64,000 nt of DNA, taken from NCBI RefSeq assembly GCF_024204665.1, contig NZ_CP100355.1, positions 3,515,451 through 3,579,450 of the forward strand, given 5' to 3'. The notes below the pieces were generated by a model, which was not told the DNA's origin, ran no database searches, and was given only the letters and a program-made list of their open reading frames with translations. A program made the position numbers and the translations under genes. This document shows positions 51,111-58,872 of this stretch, piece after piece. The stretch comes from Natronosalvus rutilus. GTDB taxonomy: Archaea; Halobacteriota; Halobacteria; Halobacteriales; Natrialbaceae. Within the stretch, counting starts at the first letter, position 1. The number at the start of each line of letters is the position of its first letter.

Positions 51111-52811
51111 TCAGGCCAGCCCGATCTGTTCGGTGTAGGCCCCGTAGTGGTCCTCGAACACCTGCATGATCTCGCCCATCGTCGCGTACGCCTTGACGGC
51201 GTCGACGATGGCCGGCATCGTGTTCTCGTCGCTCCCGATGGCCTCCTTCAGGTCCTCGAGGGCGGCCTCGACGGCCGCGTCGTCGCGCTCGGCTTTCGTC
51301 CGCTCGAGGCGCTCGAGCTGGGTTTCCTGGGCGGCCTCGTCCACGTGGAGGATCTCGGGGCTGGTGTCCTCCTCGATAGTGAACTTGTTGACGCCGACGA
51401 CGACCTCCTCTTCGCGCTCGACGCGCTCCTGGTACTCGTAGGAGGCCTCCTGAATCTCCCGGAGGAAGTAGCCGTCGTCGATGCCCTGGAGGATGCCGTC
51501 TCGCACGGAACCGTCGCCGAGGTCGCGGATGTGCTTGATGTATTCCATCGCCTGCTCCTCGACCTCGTTGGTCAGGGATTCGACGGCGAACGAACCGCCG
51601 AGCGGGTCGACGATATCGGCGGCGCCGGACTCCTCGGCGATAATCTGCTGGGTCCGGAGAGCGACCCTGACAGCCTTCTCGCTGGGCAGGGCGAGCGCCT
51701 CGTCGAAGCTGTTGGTGTGGAGGCTCTGGGTGCCTCCCAGCACCCCGGCGAGGGCCTGGACGGTGACGCGAGCGACGTTGTTGATCGGCTGCTGGGCGGT
51801 CAGCGACTGGCCGGCGGTCTGGGTGTGGAACTTCAGCCGTTTGGATTCGGCGCGCTCGGCGTCGTACCACTCGTCCATCACGCGGGCGTAGATTCGCCGC
51901 GCGGCGCGGAACTTGGCGATCTCCTCGAAGAAGGAGTTGTGGCAATTGAAGAAAAACGAGAGACGCGGCGCGAACTCGTCGACTTCGAGCCCGCGGTCCA
52001 TCGCGTCCTCGACGTAGCCGAAGCCGTCCGCCAGCGTGAAGGCGAGTTCCTGAACGGCCGTCGACCCGGCCTCGCGGATGTGGTAGCCCGAGACCGAGAT
52101 GGGGTGGAACTTCGGGGTCTCCTCGGTGCTGAACTCGACGACGTCGGTCACGAGGTCGAGGGCGGGTTCGGGCGGGATGACCCACTCCTTCTGAGCGATG
52201 AACTCCTTGAACATGTCGTTCTGGAGGGTGCCCCGGACCTGGTCGCGGGGCACGCCCTGCTGGTCGGCCAGCGCGACGTACATCGCGTAGATGACGGGCG
52301 CGGAGGGGTTGATCGTGAAACTCGTCGAGACCTCGCCGACGTCGATGCCGTCGAACAGCACCTCCATGTCCCGCAATGTGTCCACGGCGACGCCTTCTCT
52401 GCCGACCTCGCCGTCGCTCATCGGGTCGTCCGAGTCGAGCCCCATCAGCGTCGGCATGTCGAACGCCGTCGAGAGGCCGGTCTGACCCTGGTCGATCAGG
52501 TAGTGAAAGCGCTCGTTGGTCTCTTCGACGGTCCCGAACCCGGCGAACTGACGCATCGTCCACGTCCGGCCGCGGTACATCGTCGGGTACGGCCCTCGCG
52601 TGTAGGGTTCCTCGCCGGGAAAGCCCAGATCCTCGAGGTAGTCCAGGTCCGAGACGTCGTCGGGGGTGTACAGTCGGTCGACCTCGAGGTTCGAGACCGT
52701 CGCGAACCGGTCCTTGCGCTCCCCGAAGCGTTCAACCACGGGCTCGAGCGTCTCCGATTCCCACTCGGATTCGGCATCCTGGATCGTCTCGAGATCCGCA
52801 TCGTCGTACAT
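51111..52811 (-). CDS. methylmalonyl-CoA mutase large (catalytic) subunit
   Basis: 566 residues covering the CoA-binding TIM barrel: RGPYPTMYRGRTWTMRQFAG (about 83-102), STAFDMPTLMGLDSDDPMS, and the substrate/adenosyl regions HPISVSGYHIREAGSTAV and TAQQPINNVARVTVQALAGV. The B12-binding C-terminal domain is absent. In archaea it is a separate small subunit, which is not adjacent here. The enzyme interconverts methylmalonyl-CoA and succinyl-CoA in propionate metabolism and in the methylaspartate cycle. Start ATG at 52811 rather than 52838, since a TATA-like element lies about 27 bases upstream and family proteins begin near MYDDADLETI. Confidence 0.92.
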   Translation of the reverse strand: MYDDADLETIQDAESEWESETLEPVVERFGERKDRFATVSNLEVDRLYTPDDVSDLDYLEDLGFPGEEPYTRGPYPTMYRGRTWTMRQFAGFGTVEETNERFHYLIDQGQTGLSTAFDMPTLMGLDSDDPMSDGEVGREGVAVDTLRDMEVLFDGIDVGEVSTSFTINPSAPVIYAMYVALADQQGVPRDQVRGTLQNDMFKEFIAQKEWVIPPEPALDLVTDVVEFSTEETPKFHPISVSGYHIREAGSTAVQELAFTLADGFGYVEDAMDRGLEVDEFAPRLSFFFNCHNSFFEEIAKFRAARRIYARVMDEWYDAERAESKRLKFHTQTAGQSLTAQQPINNVARVTVQALAGVLGGTQSLHTNSFDEALALPSEKAVRVALRTQQIIAEESGAADIVDPLGGSFAVESLTNEVEEQAMEYIKHIRDLGDGSVRDGILQGIDDGYFLREIQEASYEYQERVEREEEVVVGVNKFTIEEDTSPEILHVDEAAQETQLERLERTKAERDDAAVEAALEDLKEAIGSDENTMPAIVDAVKAYATMGEIMQVFEDHYGAYTEQIGLA

Positions 52812-53171
52812 GAGCGTAAGTATTGCCGGACGGTCCATTAAGGATTCCGGGAAGGATCGATACGCCGGCGTCGTGGGAGATTACGAAGATGCCAGAGGCG
52901 GGTTCGTTCTCGGTCTTCTCGTCCTTCGAGTGGCAGAGGCGGGACGAAACGACGTCGACGAGGCTAGGCTGCATCTGCAAGCAGCATGGTAACGCACGGC
53001 CCGCTCGAACCACTCAGTGAGTGAGCGGCGGCCACAGTCGCCGCTGCATTTGGAGGGTGAGACGTATGCATACACAACGACAGACGACCACAGACGTAGA
53101 CGGCCGGTGGAACCGTCCGCGAGTGATTAGTCGCGGTCACCGGGACCGGCGACGATCCGCGAGGTGGCACG
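52812..53171. other. 360-base intergenic region between the mutase and the gvp operon
   Basis: No gene is seen. It holds the mutase promoter (minus-strand ccttaatgg, forward 52837-52845), CACTCA/TGAGTG arms at 53011-53023 and the perfect palindrome GTATGCATAC at 53064-53073, about 100 bases before gvpF. There is no gvpA, gvpC, gvpN or gvpO remnant that I can recognise, and no clear TATA box 27 bases before the gvpF GTG, so gvpF likely has a leader. Confidence 0.5.
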
Positions 53172-53852
53172 GTGGCTGACTCGAGTTACCACTACGTGTA
53201 CGGGATCGTCGCCTCGAGCGACGCCAACGCGATCTCGCTCGAGGAAGACGACGATTCGGACCGAGAGACGCTGCCCGTGGAGGGGGCGGGCGTTGCTGGG
53301 GCAACCGAGTTGTACCCGGTATCCCACGGTCGACTTGCCGCGCTGGCGTCGCCGATCGACGTGACCGATCCCGAGGAGACCGACGAGGACGCGAAACGCC
53401 ACGACGCGGTGCTCCGCGCGCTGTTGACCGAGAACGGCGGCCGAACGATCGTTCCGATGCGATTCGGTATGGTCTTCGAAAGCGAGCGCGCGCTGAAGAA
53501 CGTCCTCCGCGGTGGCCGCGGCGCGTTCAGACGAACGCTTCACGACATCGACAACAGGGTCGAACTCGGCCTGAAGGTCGTTCGCGAGCAGGACGCGACC
53601 GTCGATGACGAGACGATCGTCGAGCGGGTGAGCGACGAACTCGAGCCACTGGCCACGAGCAGCGTCGATAGCGGGGAGTTCAGTGATCGGCTTATACTCA
53701 ACCGCTCCTATCTCGTCGACCGGTCGGAGCGCGAGGCGTTCGACACCGCCGTCGGCGAACTCGAGGCCGACCTCGAGGACGTGATGATCCGGTACTCGGG
53801 GCCGTTCGCGCCGTACAGTTTCGTCGACGTCAAGATCGGGGCCCAGCGATGA
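53172..53852 (+). CDS. gvpF: gas vesicle protein GvpF
   Basis: 226 residues of the GvpF/GvpL family: YHYVYGIVASSDANAI at the start, then HDAVLRALLTENGGRTIVPMRF, GMVFESERALKNVL and a C-terminal ferredoxin-like fold ending FAPYSFVDVKI. GvpF is a minor, essential gas vesicle protein that binds GvpA during assembly in Halobacterium. Start GTG at 53172. It opens a tightly overlapping operon (the stop overlaps gvpG by 4 bases). Unusually, no gvpA gene lies upstream. Confidence 0.93.
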   Translation: MADSSYHYVYGIVASSDANAISLEEDDDSDRETLPVEGAGVAGATELYPVSHGRLAALASPIDVTDPEETDEDAKRHDAVLRALLTENGGRTIVPMRFGMVFESERALKNVLRGGRGAFRRTLHDIDNRVELGLKVVREQDATVDDETIVERVSDELEPLATSSVDSGEFSDRLILNRSYLVDRSEREAFDTAVGELEADLEDVMIRYSGPFAPYSFVDVKIGAQR

Positions 53853-54115
53853 TGGCGATCATCGTTGACGACCTGCTCGTCCGCCCGTTCGTCGGCCTCG
53901 TCAACACGTTGCACACGATGGCGATCAACGAACTGTACGACATCGAGGCCCTCGAGAACGAGCGCAAGGAAAACCGACTCCTCTACGAACTCGGCGAACG
54001 GTCGAAAGCCGAGTACGAGGAGCGCAGAGACGAAATCGAAGCCGAACTCGAACTCGCTCGCGAGGTCCACGAGGAACTCACGAGCGGACGCGTGGAGGTC
54101 CGAACCAATGACTGA
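53849..54115 (+). CDS. gvpG: gas vesicle protein GvpG
   Basis: 88 residues. VDDLLVRPFVGLVNTLHTMA and NELYDIEALENERKENRLLY are the GvpG family core, followed by a coiled coil (EYEERRDEIEAELELAREVHEE). GvpG is a minor assembly protein needed for gas vesicle formation in Halobacterium. The ATGA overlap with gvpF and 8-base overlap with gvpH indicate coupled translation. Confidence 0.92.
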   Translation: MMAIIVDDLLVRPFVGLVNTLHTMAINELYDIEALENERKENRLLYELGERSKAEYEERRDEIEAELELAREVHEELTSGRVEVRTND

Positions 54116-54935
54116 CGAACCACCAGATCCCCCAGATTCACCCGACGGCCCGCCCGAGGAACCACCCGAGGAACCGTCTGAAGAACCATCCGAAGAATCA
54201 CCCGAGACGCCACCGAACGACGGCGACGACAATCAGATGTCCGACTCGAGCCAGTCGTCCGATCAGGAATCGGCTGCGGGAGACGACGAGGCCGACGAAC
54301 CCGGCAACCAACCGAACGAGCGAGCGGATCAGTCCAATGAACACGGAGACGAGCGTCGTCCATCGCCCCCGTCCTCCAGTCGGCACCAGTCGGAGTCCGG
54401 ATTCGAGGCCAGGCCGGGCGGACAGCTCCTGTCGCGGCTCTTTCGGCTCCTCGAGTCGGGCGCCGAGAGCGGGACCGGATTCGGCGGCGCGTACGGAAAC
54501 GCGCCCTTCGGCGACTCGACCCGACGCGACGACGGTAGCCGTTTCAGGTTCGACACCGACGTCGACCTGACGTTCAGCTCGATCGAACCCGCCGGTGACG
54601 ACGCTCGTCGAAATCGGCGTCGCGGATTGCACGACGAGCGCTCGCCCGAGCGCGCTCGACGCGACGCGATCCCGTCGATCGACGTCGCGAAGCGACGATA
54701 CGGGACGGAACTCGAGGTCGTGGCCGACGTCTCGGCAGTCGGGGAAGATCGGGTCCGCGTCGGGTTCGACGACGACGACCTCGTCCTGGCCGACGACGAC
54801 GGCCACGAGCTGTCGCGCGTGAGTCTGCCGTGGCCGGAAACGGAGGCCGACGCGACGGTGAACAACGGCATCCTTACGGTGCGGGTGACCCGGGTAGACG
54901 CCCCCGACCCCGTGGACGGTGAGACCGATGAGTGA
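54108..54935 (+). CDS. gvpH: gas vesicle protein GvpH (Hsp20-like)
   Basis: 275 residues. About 1-105 is an unusual Pro/Glu/Asp/Ser-rich tract (PEEPPEEPSEEPSEESPE), then a GGQLLSRLFRLLESGAESG region, and a C-terminal alpha-crystallin/Hsp20-like domain from about 185 (AIPSIDVAKRRYGTELEVVAD, then SLPWPETEADATVNNGILTV). In Halobacterium GvpH is a small chaperone-like protein that is not strictly essential. The long acidic-proline N-terminus is larger than expected. ATG at 54108 overlaps gvpG by 8 bases; the next gene starts 8 bases before its stop. Confidence 0.85.
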   Translation: MTDEPPDPPDSPDGPPEEPPEEPSEEPSEESPETPPNDGDDNQMSDSSQSSDQESAAGDDEADEPGNQPNERADQSNEHGDERRPSPPSSSRHQSESGFEARPGGQLLSRLFRLLESGAESGTGFGGAYGNAPFGDSTRRDDGSRFRFDTDVDLTFSSIEPAGDDARRNRRRGLHDERSPERARRDAIPSIDVAKRRYGTELEVVADVSAVGEDRVRVGFDDDDLVLADDDGHELSRVSLPWPETEADATVNNGILTVRVTRVDAPDPVDGETDE

Positions 54936-55836
54936 AACGAACGAAGTAGGTGACGAAATCGACATCGAGGCCGACGACCTCGAGTCGGTCGTCGAAACCG
55001 GCAGCGCCGCACTCGACGCCCTCGAGGACGACCTCGCCGACGTCGACGCACTCGGCGAACTCGACGACGACGTGCTCGAGGACGTGCGGCAGAACCTCCA
55101 CGCGCTCGAGGACGTGACGACGGCCCTCGCCGAGTTCATCGAGGCGATGGACCTCGAAGACCTGGCCGAGGTCGTCGAGCCAGGCGAGTTGCTCGACGCG
55201 ATCGACGTCGGCGAGATCCCGGATGCGCTGCAGTCGGGAGAAATCGCCGACGCGGTCAACGTGACCGCCTTGCTCGACGCGCTCAACCTGCTCGAGGCGT
55301 GGGGCGCGACCGACGTGACCGACGTGCTCAGGGAGGGTGACGATCTTACAGACACCCTCGAGGACGTGAGCGAGGAGGATTCGGCCGTCGGCGCGGCGGC
55401 GTCGACGGTAACGGACGACGATGGCGACGATGACGATGACGACCTCCTTGAGGACCAACTCGACGTCAGCGCCGAGGAAACCATGGACGCCCTCGACGTC
55501 GACGTACTCGAGGACCCCGAGTACGTGCAGGTTTCGATCCAGCAGGCCGCGATGGAGGCCATCGACGGCGTTCGCTGGACGCTGCTCGAGACCCACGAGC
55601 AGTTCGAGAAGCTCTACGAGTTCAACCGGGAACGAATGCGCCGCCAGGACCGCGGGACCACGTCTCGGAACCCGACCGCGGCGTCGACCATGCCGGTCGC
55701 CCGGGCGGACCTCGGAAGCGACAGCCGCTACTCGACGGTTCCCCAGCAGGTCAAGCTGTCGACGGCACCCGCCCGACGGCGGATCTACGGCAGACGATTC
55801 GAGATCGAACGGAAACGCCAGCGGGGTGAGCGCTGA
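54928..55836 (+). CDS. protein in the gvpI position, unusually long and acidic
   Basis: 302 residues from ATG 54928. Much of residues 1-190 is repeated amphipathic, acidic helices (SAALDALEDDLADVDALGEL; LHALEDVTTALAEFIEAMDL; DVGEIPDALQSGEIADAVNV). After an Asp run (DDDGDDDDDDLL), a second half ends in a basic tail (ARRRIYGRRFEIERKRQRGE). Halobacterium gvpI is small and basic, so only the tail and position between gvpH and gvpJ argue for GvpI; the acidic part is unlike it. It could be a GvpI fused to an extra domain or a different protein. It overlaps gvpH by 8 bases and touches gvpJ. Confidence 0.7.
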   Translation: MSETNEVGDEIDIEADDLESVVETGSAALDALEDDLADVDALGELDDDVLEDVRQNLHALEDVTTALAEFIEAMDLEDLAEVVEPGELLDAIDVGEIPDALQSGEIADAVNVTALLDALNLLEAWGATDVTDVLREGDDLTDTLEDVSEEDSAVGAAASTVTDDDGDDDDDDLLEDQLDVSAEETMDALDVDVLEDPEYVQVSIQQAAMEAIDGVRWTLLETHEQFEKLYEFNRERMRRQDRGTTSRNPTAASTMPVARADLGSDSRYSTVPQQVKLSTAPARRRIYGRRFEIERKRQRGER

Positions 55837-56297
55837 TGGTCGACGCCGTTCAGCCAAGCCGTCAGCAGGCCGACCTCGCGGACGTCGTCGAGATGCTGCT
55901 CGACAAGGGGATCGTGATCAACGCCGACATCGCCGTCTCCATCGGCGATACCCAGCTACTCGGTATCCAGCTTCGCGCCGCCATCGCCTCCTTCGAGACG
56001 GCCGCGAAGTACGGCCTCGAGTTCCCCGAGGGGACGGACATGCGCCGCGTGGCGGAGGCCGCGGGCGAACCGGAACTCGCGGAGGAGGATCGGCGGCTGA
56101 TCCCACCCGTCGCACCAGTTCACGGTGTGAATGTGACTAGCGAGGACGACCAGATGGAACGTTCGGACGCGGACGACTCGAGTGAGGACGAATCGGACGA
56201 CGATACCGAGAACTCGAGTGCGGACGGGTCGGCTGATGAAACCGAACGCGAAGACGACGCACCTGAAGCCGAAACCGACGGAGGCGAGAACACGTGA
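55836..56297 (+). CDS. gvpJ: gas vesicle protein GvpJ
   Basis: 153 residues. The GvpA/J/M family core runs about 12-60: LADVVEMLLDKGIVINADIA, VSIGDTQLLGIQLRAAIASF and ETAAKYGLEFP. The rest is an acidic, disordered tail with repeated Asp/Glu/Ser. GvpJ is a minor GvpA-like protein required for gas vesicle nucleation or growth. The TGATG junction with the preceding gene and the 4-base overlap with gvpK show coupled translation. Confidence 0.92.
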   Translation: MVDAVQPSRQQADLADVVEMLLDKGIVINADIAVSIGDTQLLGIQLRAAIASFETAAKYGLEFPEGTDMRRVAEAAGEPELAEEDRRLIPPVAPVHGVNVTSEDDQMERSDADDSSEDESDDDTENSSADGSADETEREDDAPEAETDGGENT

Positions 56298-56641
56298 CCA
56301 CGATCGACGTCGGCGAGGACGGCAACGCCCGCCAGGGGCTATTGACCCTCGTCATCGCCGTCGTGGAACTCCTCGTCGAGGCGCTCGAACGGGAGGCGAT
56401 CCGGCGGATGGAGTCCCCGGATCTCACCGACGAGGAGGTCGACCGTCTGGGGCGCCAGCTCGCGTCCATCGAGGCCGAACTCGAGCAGCTGAAAGCCGAC
56501 GAGGGGATCAAGGAGGGCGTCGCCGACCTCCGGAACGATCTCGACGGCCTGGTCAGCGACGCGATCAGGCAACTCGAGGACGATCCGACGAACGTCGAGA
56601 CGGGCCACGCCGTCCTCGGAGGTGACGACGGTGGGACGTGA
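56294..56641 (+). CDS. gvpK: gas vesicle protein GvpK
   Basis: 115 residues from GTG 56294. The family pattern is ARQGLLTLVIAVVELLVEAL, EREAIRRMESPDLTDEEVDR and GRQLASIEAELEQLK. GvpK is a helical minor protein needed for gas vesicle formation. It overlaps gvpJ by 4 bases (GTGA) and gvpL by 11-20 bases depending on the gvpL start. Confidence 0.9.
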   Translation: MTTIDVGEDGNARQGLLTLVIAVVELLVEALEREAIRRMESPDLTDEEVDRLGRQLASIEAELEQLKADEGIKEGVADLRNDLDGLVSDAIRQLEDDPTNVETGHAVLGGDDGGT

Positions 56642-57659
56642 ACCGCGCGAGGCCACGGCCCAGGAACGGGACGCGAACCGTGACGACCCGGCAGGTCGCG
56701 ACGCCGAACCCGTTTCGGACGCCGACGAGACCCCCGACTTCGCCGAGGGACGGTACGTCTACTGCATCGTCACGCTCGAGGCCGACGGCGAGGCCGATCT
56801 GGACGTCGGGGGGATCGACGACGAACCCGTGTCGGTCGTCGCGCTCGATCGCGAAGATGGGGACAGGGACGGAGACGGGAACCTGACCCTCGCCGCAGTC
56901 GTTCACGCGTGTGACTCGCTGTACGACTCGGCCGACATCGCGCAGGTCAAGCGCTGGCTGGTCCGCCACCAGACAGTCATCGATCGGGCGAGCCAGCAGT
57001 TCGGTACGCCCCTGCCGTTCCAGTTCGACACCATCGTCCGGGGCGACGACGACGCCGTCCGCGGGTGGCTCGCCGACCAGCGGACCCCGCTCGAGGCGGC
57101 GCTCGCGGATCTCGCCAGCCACGCGGAGTACCGGATCGAGGTCGTCGAGACCGATCCGCCCGACGAGGAGATGCTGGTCGAGCGCGACGACGAACTCGCG
57201 TCGCTGGCCGAAGAGCGAGAGGGGGCCTCGGAGGGACGCGCGTTCCTCCTCGAGAAGCAGTTCGATCAGCGGATCAGGGACCTCCGGCGCGACCGGCGAG
57301 CGTCTATACGGGAGTCCCTGCGCCAGTCGCTCGAGTCGTGTACGCGGGAGGTACAGGTGCTTGAGCGCCAGCCATCGGTGAGTCTCTCCAGCGGTTCCGG
57401 CAGGGCTGGAAAACCGGCAGACGGAACGCGGCTCTGTCGGCTGACCGTCCTCGCCCGGGAGAGCGAGGAGGAGACGGTCGGTTCGGTACTCGACGACGTC
57501 GCCGAGAAACCGGGGCTCGAGGTCCGGTTCACCGGGCCGTGGCCGCCATACTCGTTCGCGCCCACGCTCGGAGAGGAGATGGACGCTGCCGCGAGTGGTG
57601 ATCGGAGTACGAGCACGGAGACGAAAACGAGCACCGAGACGGGTGATCGCCAACGATGA
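56622..57659 (+). CDS. gvpL: gas vesicle protein GvpL (GvpF/GvpL family)
   Basis: 345 residues, a longer paralogue of GvpF. EGRYVYCIVTLEADGEADLD begins the domain at about 42, RASQQFGTPLPFQFDTIVRG (about 120-139) is the family centre, and the end LEVRFTGPWPPYSFAP corresponds to the GvpF end. A coiled region (about 185-235) and disordered ends make it longer than GvpF. GvpL interacts with most accessory Gvp proteins in Halobacterium. Start is GTG 56622, with GTG 56631 possible. The stop overlaps gvpM by 4 bases. Confidence 0.9.
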   Translation: MTTVGREPREATAQERDANRDDPAGRDAEPVSDADETPDFAEGRYVYCIVTLEADGEADLDVGGIDDEPVSVVALDREDGDRDGDGNLTLAAVVHACDSLYDSADIAQVKRWLVRHQTVIDRASQQFGTPLPFQFDTIVRGDDDAVRGWLADQRTPLEAALADLASHAEYRIEVVETDPPDEEMLVERDDELASLAEEREGASEGRAFLLEKQFDQRIRDLRRDRRASIRESLRQSLESCTREVQVLERQPSVSLSSGSGRAGKPADGTRLCRLTVLARESEEETVGSVLDDVAEKPGLEVRFTGPWPPYSFAPTLGEEMDAAASGDRSTSTETKTSTETGDRQR

Positions 57660-58045
57660 AACCCGACCGAGACGACGACGCGCTGGTCGACGTCCTCGAC
57701 GTGCTCCTGCGCGACGGCGCGGTCGTGCGCGCCGACGTAATCGTCTCCGTCGCGGAAATTCCGCTCGTGGGCATCAAACTGTCCGCCGCAATCGCCGGCA
57801 TGGAGACGATGACCGACTACGGCCTCTTCGAGGACTGGGACACGACGCGGCGCACTCGAGCGGTCGAGCGCCGCCAGTACGGCCATCGGCGAGGCAACGA
57901 CGACCGCGAGGACGCAGACGAGGAGCGCGACTTCCAGGACCACCCCACGATGCGCCCGCAGGGGGAGCCGCGGCGATGGACGCCGGCGCCGGAGGACGAG
58001 CGAGAACGTGAACGTCCGCAGCCATCTACCGTCTCCGAGGAGTGA
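57656..58045 (+). CDS. gvpM: gas vesicle protein GvpM
   Basis: 129 residues. The GvpA/J/M core spans about 8-55: ALVDVLDVLLRDGAVVRADV, IVSVAEIPLVGIKLSAAIAG and METMTDYGLFEDW. A charged, disordered tail follows. GvpM is a minor GvpA-like protein. It is the last gene of the operon; a 110-base gap separates it from the MaoC gene on the opposite strand. No shell gene gvpA follows. Confidence 0.9.
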   Translation: MKPDRDDDALVDVLDVLLRDGAVVRADVIVSVAEIPLVGIKLSAAIAGMETMTDYGLFEDWDTTRRTRAVERRQYGHRRGNDDREDADEERDFQDHPTMRPQGEPRRWTPAPEDERERERPQPSTVSEE

Positions 58046-58155: not shown

Positions 58156-58632
58156 TCAGTCGTCCGAATCAGCGTCCGTCTCCGCGAACTTGCGCTTGAG
58201 CGAGAGGACAGTTCGGGAGAACGAACAGACGAGCTCGTCGTCCTGGTTGAACACCTCGACGGCCATCGTGACGACGCCGCGCTCGCTGTCGCTGGTCTCG
58301 CGTTTGTCGGTCACCGTCGACTGGACGCGGATCGTGTCCCCGTGAAACACCGGCGTCGGGTGCTCGACGTCGTCGTAGTTCAGGTTCGCGACGATCGTGC
58401 CGTCCGTGGTCTCGGGAATCGAGATGCCGACGGCCAGCGCCAGCGTGTAGATACCGTTGACCAGTCGTTCGCCGAACTGGGTCTCCTGGGCGAAGGTCTC
58501 GTCGAGGTGCAACGGCTGCTGGTTCATCGTCATGTCGCAGAATCGCTGGTTGTCGCCTTCGGAAATCGTCCGTCGGCGCTGGTGTTCGATCGTCTCGCCC
58601 ACCTCGAACTCCTCGTAGTACAGGCCGGTCAT
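58156..58632 (-). CDS. MaoC family (R)-hydratase, candidate mesaconyl-CoA or enoyl-CoA hydratase
   Basis: 158 residues of one hotdog fold: GLYYEEFEVGETIEHQRRRT, then the catalytic hydratase-2 region DNQRFCDMTMNQQPLHLDET (about 30-49) with Asp/His. LVNGIYTLALAVGISI and YDDVEHPTPVFHGDTIRVQS follow. It adds water to a 2-enoyl-CoA. Neighbours (glutamate dehydrogenases, CitE-type lyase, and the mutase across the gvp operon) suggest mesaconyl-CoA hydratase of the methylaspartate cycle, but short-chain enoyl-CoA hydratase cannot be excluded. Start ATG at 58632, as the in-frame upstream extension is not family-like. Confidence 0.82.
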   Translation of the reverse strand: MTGLYYEEFEVGETIEHQRRRTISEGDNQRFCDMTMNQQPLHLDETFAQETQFGERLVNGIYTLALAVGISIPETTDGTIVANLNYDDVEHPTPVFHGDTIRVQSTVTDKRETSDSERGVVTMAVEVFNQDDELVCSFSRTVLSLKRKFAETDADSDD

Positions 58633-58872
58633 CGTCTCGAGCGTCGACGGGGGCGAGTAAAATGACACCGATCGATCCCTGCCCGACGCCGTAGCCGTGG
58701 CCCCCATCGGGGTGCAAGTATTGCCCAATCCGAGGAATAATAGCAAGGATTAAGCGTCGGCCTCGGGAAATCCGAACGAATGCGTCGACGCGCCCGTCTC
58801 CTCTCGACGAGGTCGTCGACGGGTTGGTCTAGACACCGTCCGTGACGGACCGTGTCCGTTCCCAGAGATACC

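Follow-up and report, generated by a model that had tools for sequence, protein, structure and literature searches.

The stretch of DNA analysed here (the window, 64 kb in length) covers positions 3515451 to 3579450 of contig C1 in the 4.31-Mb genome of Natronosalvus rutilus and contains an operon of gas-vesicle (gvp) accessory genes, gvpF-G-H-I-J-K-L-M, on the forward strand at 53172-58045. The corresponding shell genes form a separate gvpA-gvpN-gvpO operon elsewhere on the same contig, and a 14-bp element, GCTTGCAGNYGCAG, is found upstream of both operons. Based on these features and on their conservation in related genomes (designated below by G numbers), we propose that the locus is one half of a rearranged gas-vesicle system that is probably still co-regulated.

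The accessory operon and its shell genes

The eight genes of the operon overlap or are closely packed on the forward strand, and Pfam, NCBIfam and BLAST agree with their initial annotation as gvpF to gvpM. Six of them (gvpF, G, J, K, L and M) score above the Pfam cut-off, gvpG, gvpJ, gvpL and gvpM exceed curated NCBIfam cut-offs, and gvpH and gvpI were identified by BLAST against the Halobacterium proteins. The operon opens with gvpF (53172..53852; Pfam GvpL_GvpF, 1.4e-42; 45% identity to H. salinarum GvpF) and gvpG (53849..54115; Pfam GvpG, 2.4e-14). The product of gvpH (54108..54935; 30% to H. salinarum GvpH, E 0.005) combines a long acidic N-terminus with an Hsp20-like C-terminal part, for which the NCBIfam Hsp20 match is weak and under the cut-off (3.5e-4). 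In the gvpI product (54919..55836) the C-terminal 80 amino acids match H. salinarum GvpI (34%, E 2e-7); they follow an acidic N-terminal extension of about 210 residues that is common across the family Natrialbaceae and was described earlier in Natrialba magadii and Haloterrigena turkmenica (PMC3403918). The remaining genes are gvpJ (55836..56297; NCBIfam halo_gas_GvpJ, 9e-45), gvpK (56294..56641; Pfam GvpK, 4.4e-23), gvpL (56622..57659; NCBIfam GvpL equivalog, 9e-103) and gvpM (57656..58045; NCBIfam halo_gas_GvpM, 2e-37).

No gvpA, gvpN or gvpO is present within the window, and the only GvpO match of the genome lies outside it. Four genes of the genome match the GvpA family (PF00741): two are gvpJ and gvpM of the present operon, and the other two, both outside the window, are true gvpA genes. 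The first of these (gvpA1), which exceeds the NCBIfam GvpA cut-off, leads an intact gvpA-gvpN-gvpO operon on the reverse strand at C1:3442521-3444483, the start of which is separated from gvpF by 124 kb of unrelated genes. The encoded proteins share 84% (GvpA, over the core), 52% (GvpN) and 53% (GvpO) identity with those of H. salinarum. The second gene (gvpA2) is solitary (C1:1301985-1302275; L005 9985-10275, reverse strand) and is flanked on both sides by DDE transposase genes within about 4 kb; a 98% identical copy occurs in G113 (L077). In H. salinarum, gvpA, F, G, J, K, L, M and O are described as the eight genes sufficient for vesicles (Offner et al., 2000, as cited in PMC4390858). The genome holds all eight, intact, together with gvpH, gvpI and gvpN.

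The initial annotation had proposed that the shell genes are elsewhere, are lost, or that the accessory proteins do something else. The first option holds. Loss is rejected by the two gvpA genes found genome-wide. A normal gvpACNO operon elsewhere had been named beforehand as the sign of a plain split locus, and since a normal gvpA-N-O operon is present, the isolated accessory operon is no indication of a non-vesicle role. That GvpF-M took on a function unrelated to gas vesicles may be suggested by an operon standing alone in the window among metabolic genes, yet it is highly improbable given the complete gene set: the genome also has conserved gvpA, gvpN and gvpO, all family genomes with gvpK also carry gvpO, and the 14-bp element ties the two operons.

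Downstream of gvpO we also noted a small CHY zinc-finger gene (L006 8039-8380, reverse strand), which recurs at the same place in the other four species of the genus with a split cluster and in 22 of the 30 named relatives; a functional link of this gene to gas vesicles is possible.

In the whole genome, no match exceeds the cut-off for gvpC (PF05465, PF01304) or gvpD (PF07088), and gvpE is beside neither operon, no genome-wide GvpE search having been made. The initial annotation listed gvpC, gvpD and gvpE among the missing genes. Their absence is not special to this genome: none of the three occurs in the cluster of any of the 30 named Natrialbaceae relatives, and published work describes Natrialba, Natrinema, Halopiger and Natronobacterium as lacking them and the strains concerned as vesicle-less (PMC4390858, PMC3403918). 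An organization without gvpC and gvpD/E is thus the family norm, as already published, and gvpC is not essential.

Distribution and origin of the split

The coordinates of gvpO and gvpK were read from lists for 125 genomes of the family, 111 of which carry both genes. The gvpA-N-O and gvpF-M operons stand together in about 105 of these 111; in the draft G091, gvpO is on a different contig, but gvpA and gvpK are together. Adjacent and divergent operons are present in each of the 30 named loci, with mutS downstream of gvpO in most. The split itself is therefore unusual in the family, and it is confined to the genome studied here, to G112, G113, G116 and G117 of the same genus, and to G022 of another genus. 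The G116 assembly is a draft of 66% completeness, but 8 kb of unrelated sequence lies upstream of its gvpA. The initial annotation had left it to be checked whether related genomes have the same split; it occurs in five species of the genus, the present one included, four of them with an identical mutase/gvpF junction, and a separate split occurred in G022.

The flanks of the accessory operon were correctly annotated at the outset: Pfam identifies a methylmalonyl-CoA mutase gene (51111..52838, reverse strand) upstream and a MaoC-like dehydratase gene (58156..58746, reverse strand) downstream of gvpM, the latter being the same flank as in G112. The mutase/gvpF junction recurs in G112, G113 and G117, and the junction between gvpA and a Dna2-like nuclease gene in G112 and G113. 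We therefore reject an assembly artefact, which would need to have produced the same mutase/gvpF junction in four separate assemblies and the same nuclease junction in three, with both loci deep within large contigs; the chance of this is negligible. Since the gvpA-N-O operon still adjoins mutS, as in related species, it is the accessory half that has changed neighbours, and the mutase gene is the neighbour that gvpF acquired at the split.

In the tree of gvp proteins the five split genomes of the genus form one clade with a support of 1.0, and G116 and G117 show further rearrangement. For the genus, the simplest reading is a single split event followed by local rearrangement. Two other members, G114 and G115, represent a distant gvp lineage apart from the rest of the family, with contiguous clusters at another location and without gvpN (L071 and L072, respectively). 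G115 has in addition a partial, divergent second gvp cluster, from gvpI to gvpM (L082, C114). In G115, where the cluster is contiguous, the mutase and the Dna2-like nuclease genes are direct neighbours. These junctions are reciprocal to those of the split genomes, which suggests an exchange between the two breakpoints. We also considered the insertion of a 120-kb segment, with the nuclease and mutase genes at its ends, between gvpA and gvpF. Insertion and exchange are both candidate mechanisms only: the gene order in G115 fits a reciprocal exchange, but the mutase-nuclease adjacency is absent from the 28 nuclease loci inspected in other genera, and G116 and G117 are rearranged further. The split in G022 (L127, L128) is independent, because both halves lie inside large contigs with different neighbours.

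Reviews describe gvp genes as always clustered (PMC9501494). One clade and a second, independent case now provide examples in which selection still maintains the shell and accessory operons although a great distance separates them. Neither a split gvp cluster in haloarchaea nor the 14-bp element was encountered in the literature searched, in which subscription journals were thinly covered, so that an earlier description is possible.

A shared 14-bp element upstream of both operons

When the upstream regions were compared, GCTTGCAGNYGCAG was found to precede gvpA as well as gvpF. The gvpF copy is located at 52969..52982 on the reverse strand, about 190 nt from the start codon, and was confirmed by an exact genome-wide scan and by conservation in the family; the gvpA copy is at C1:3444524-3444537, 124 kb away. 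These are the only two exact matches in the 4.31-Mb genome, whereas the reversed pattern, used as a control, has 10 there and 5 to 18 in each of the eight genomes of the genus. An exact scan of these eight genomes returns the same gvpA/gvpF pair in G112 and G117 and no match in G111 (which has no gvp genes), G114 and G115. Two extra exact matches have no clear gvp link (G113 C1:3253432 and G116 C35:22585).

Each of the 30 named loci of the family has a copy scoring at least 13/14 at a distance of 35-46 nt upstream of gvpA, and nearly all of them have a second copy near gvpF. In random 160-base segments of the N. rutilus genome, a 13/14 match was obtained in none of 1000 trials and a 12/14 match in 0.2%. 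Both halves of the independently split cluster of G022 keep the element at 13/14, and comparison of the sequence upstream of gvpA2 shows a 12/14 copy. The element was not found in the intergenic regions of Halobacterium and Haloplanus, which both have GvpD/E, or of Halocatena. The element is thus gvp-specific in the genus, conserved in the family and retained on both pieces of the broken cluster, and its observation is what is new here.

As a side observation, the leader between the element and gvpF (53060-53171) contains a short open reading frame preceded by GGAGG, and a similar-looking arrangement occurs in G112 and G113.

The element may mark a putative regulator that substitutes for GvpE. 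Specifically, a dedicated Natrialbaceae regulator would recognise GCTTGCAGNYGCAG in place of GvpE/GvpD, with a regulon in this genome of two gvp promoters, or perhaps three with gvpA2. Such a shared site would permit the cluster to break, at least twice, without loss of co-expression. We consider the chances of this proposal to be about even. An alternative is that the gvp promoters of this lineage carry the element as a core-promoter or DNA-structure feature, e.g., an extended B recognition element (BRE), rather than as the site of a dedicated regulator. Its position directly upstream of the presumed TATA region and at a fixed distance from gvpA is in line with that explanation, yet a general element is expected to be common and the exact 14-mer occurs nowhere else in the genome; we regard a core-promoter feature as possible, though rather doubtful. 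A dedicated regulator, or an inducing condition, if found, could explain why strains with a complete gene set are reported as vesicle-less in culture. The shared element provides a first concrete handle on gvp control in the many haloarchaea that lack GvpE/GvpD.

Selection on both halves and relation to known systems

Where the loci of the split genomes are complete, every gvp reading frame is intact. Pairwise ratios of non-synonymous to synonymous substitution rates (dN/dS) between the split genomes are 0-0.05 for gvpA, 0.09-0.19 for gvpN, 0.08-0.29 for gvpF, 0.16-0.29 for gvpM and about 0.13-0.43 for gvpJ, gvpK and gvpL. The ratio is looser for gvpH (0.31-0.43), while the value of 0.87 for gvpG in comparison with G113 is based on very few changes. 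Neighbouring genes have ratios of 0.05-0.10 (mutase), 0.28 (MaoC) and 0.18-0.24 (MutS), to which the gvp values are similar or somewhat higher. Both halves have been under purifying selection since the split.

These data bear on the possibility that the locus is a cryptic relic, i.e., that the intact split genes no longer make vesicles and that the split reflects relaxed selection. In its favour, a Vac- phenotype is reported for species with the same gene set, among them Natronobacterium gregoryi and Natrialba magadii (PMC4390858), clusters have been lost in some relatives, e.g., G111, and gvpN is missing in G114 and G115. On the other hand, the intact frames, post-split dN/dS values far under 1 for almost every gene and the retention of the element by both operons in each of the two independent splits argue against a relic, which we therefore consider unlikely.

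In this study, we propose instead a rearranged and probably still co-regulated gas-vesicle system, an account to which we assign a probability of roughly 0.7. In an ancestor of part of the genus, a chromosomal break at the gvpA/gvpF boundary of the divergent pair would have left gvpA-N-O beside mutS and joined gvpF-M to the methylmalonyl-CoA mutase gene. Each operon would have retained a promoter of its own and, upstream of it, a copy of the 14-bp element, read by a putative regulator replacing GvpE, so that both halves could answer one signal; from the sequence we infer that they are probably switched on together. As in Halobacterium, GvpF-M would then act with GvpN and GvpO to aid the polymerisation of GvpA into vesicles, although neither GvpC nor GvpD nor, on present evidence, GvpE is available here. 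Several points weigh against this account. Related species that carry the same 11 genes reportedly lack vesicles in culture (PMC4390858), so that the presence of the genes is no proof of vesicles; no good copy of the element accompanies the contiguous clusters of G114 and G115, two members of the genus; and the element could be part of the core promoter rather than a regulator site.

Compared with the p-vac/pNRC100 system of Halobacterium salinarum (gvpACNO and gvpDEFGHIJKLM), the gvpA, N, O and F-M genes are homologous and have the same order within each operon. In Halobacterium, however, the operons are adjacent and divergent and include gvpC, gvpD and gvpE, and the intergenic region between gvpA and gvpD has no 14-bp element; here the operons are far apart, gvpC and gvpD are absent, no gvpE is beside either operon, and the element precedes both gvpA and gvpF. 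The GvpE-responsive upstream activating sequence (UAS) of Halobacterium resembles the present situation in that paired upstream elements serve two gvp promoters. Its sequence differs from GCTTGCAGNYGCAG, its copies act from one intergenic region instead of two distant loci, and the Natrialbaceae clusters have no gvpE. In Methanosarcina barkeri (gvpAAA-NOFG-JHKLM) the gvp genes are, as here, interrupted by unrelated genes, but within a single cluster and not as two far-apart operons (PMC9501494, Table 1). Close counterparts are also the 11-gene vac regions of Natrialba magadii, Natrinema pellirubrum, Halopiger xanaduensis and Natronobacterium gregoryi, with the same gene set without gvpC/D/E and the same long GvpI (PMC4390858, PMC3403918), and the examined members of the Natrialbaceae carry the same promoter element. 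Whereas those regions are described as opposite operons within a single cluster (PMC9501494, Table 1), the two operons of N. rutilus enclose 124 kb of unrelated genes.

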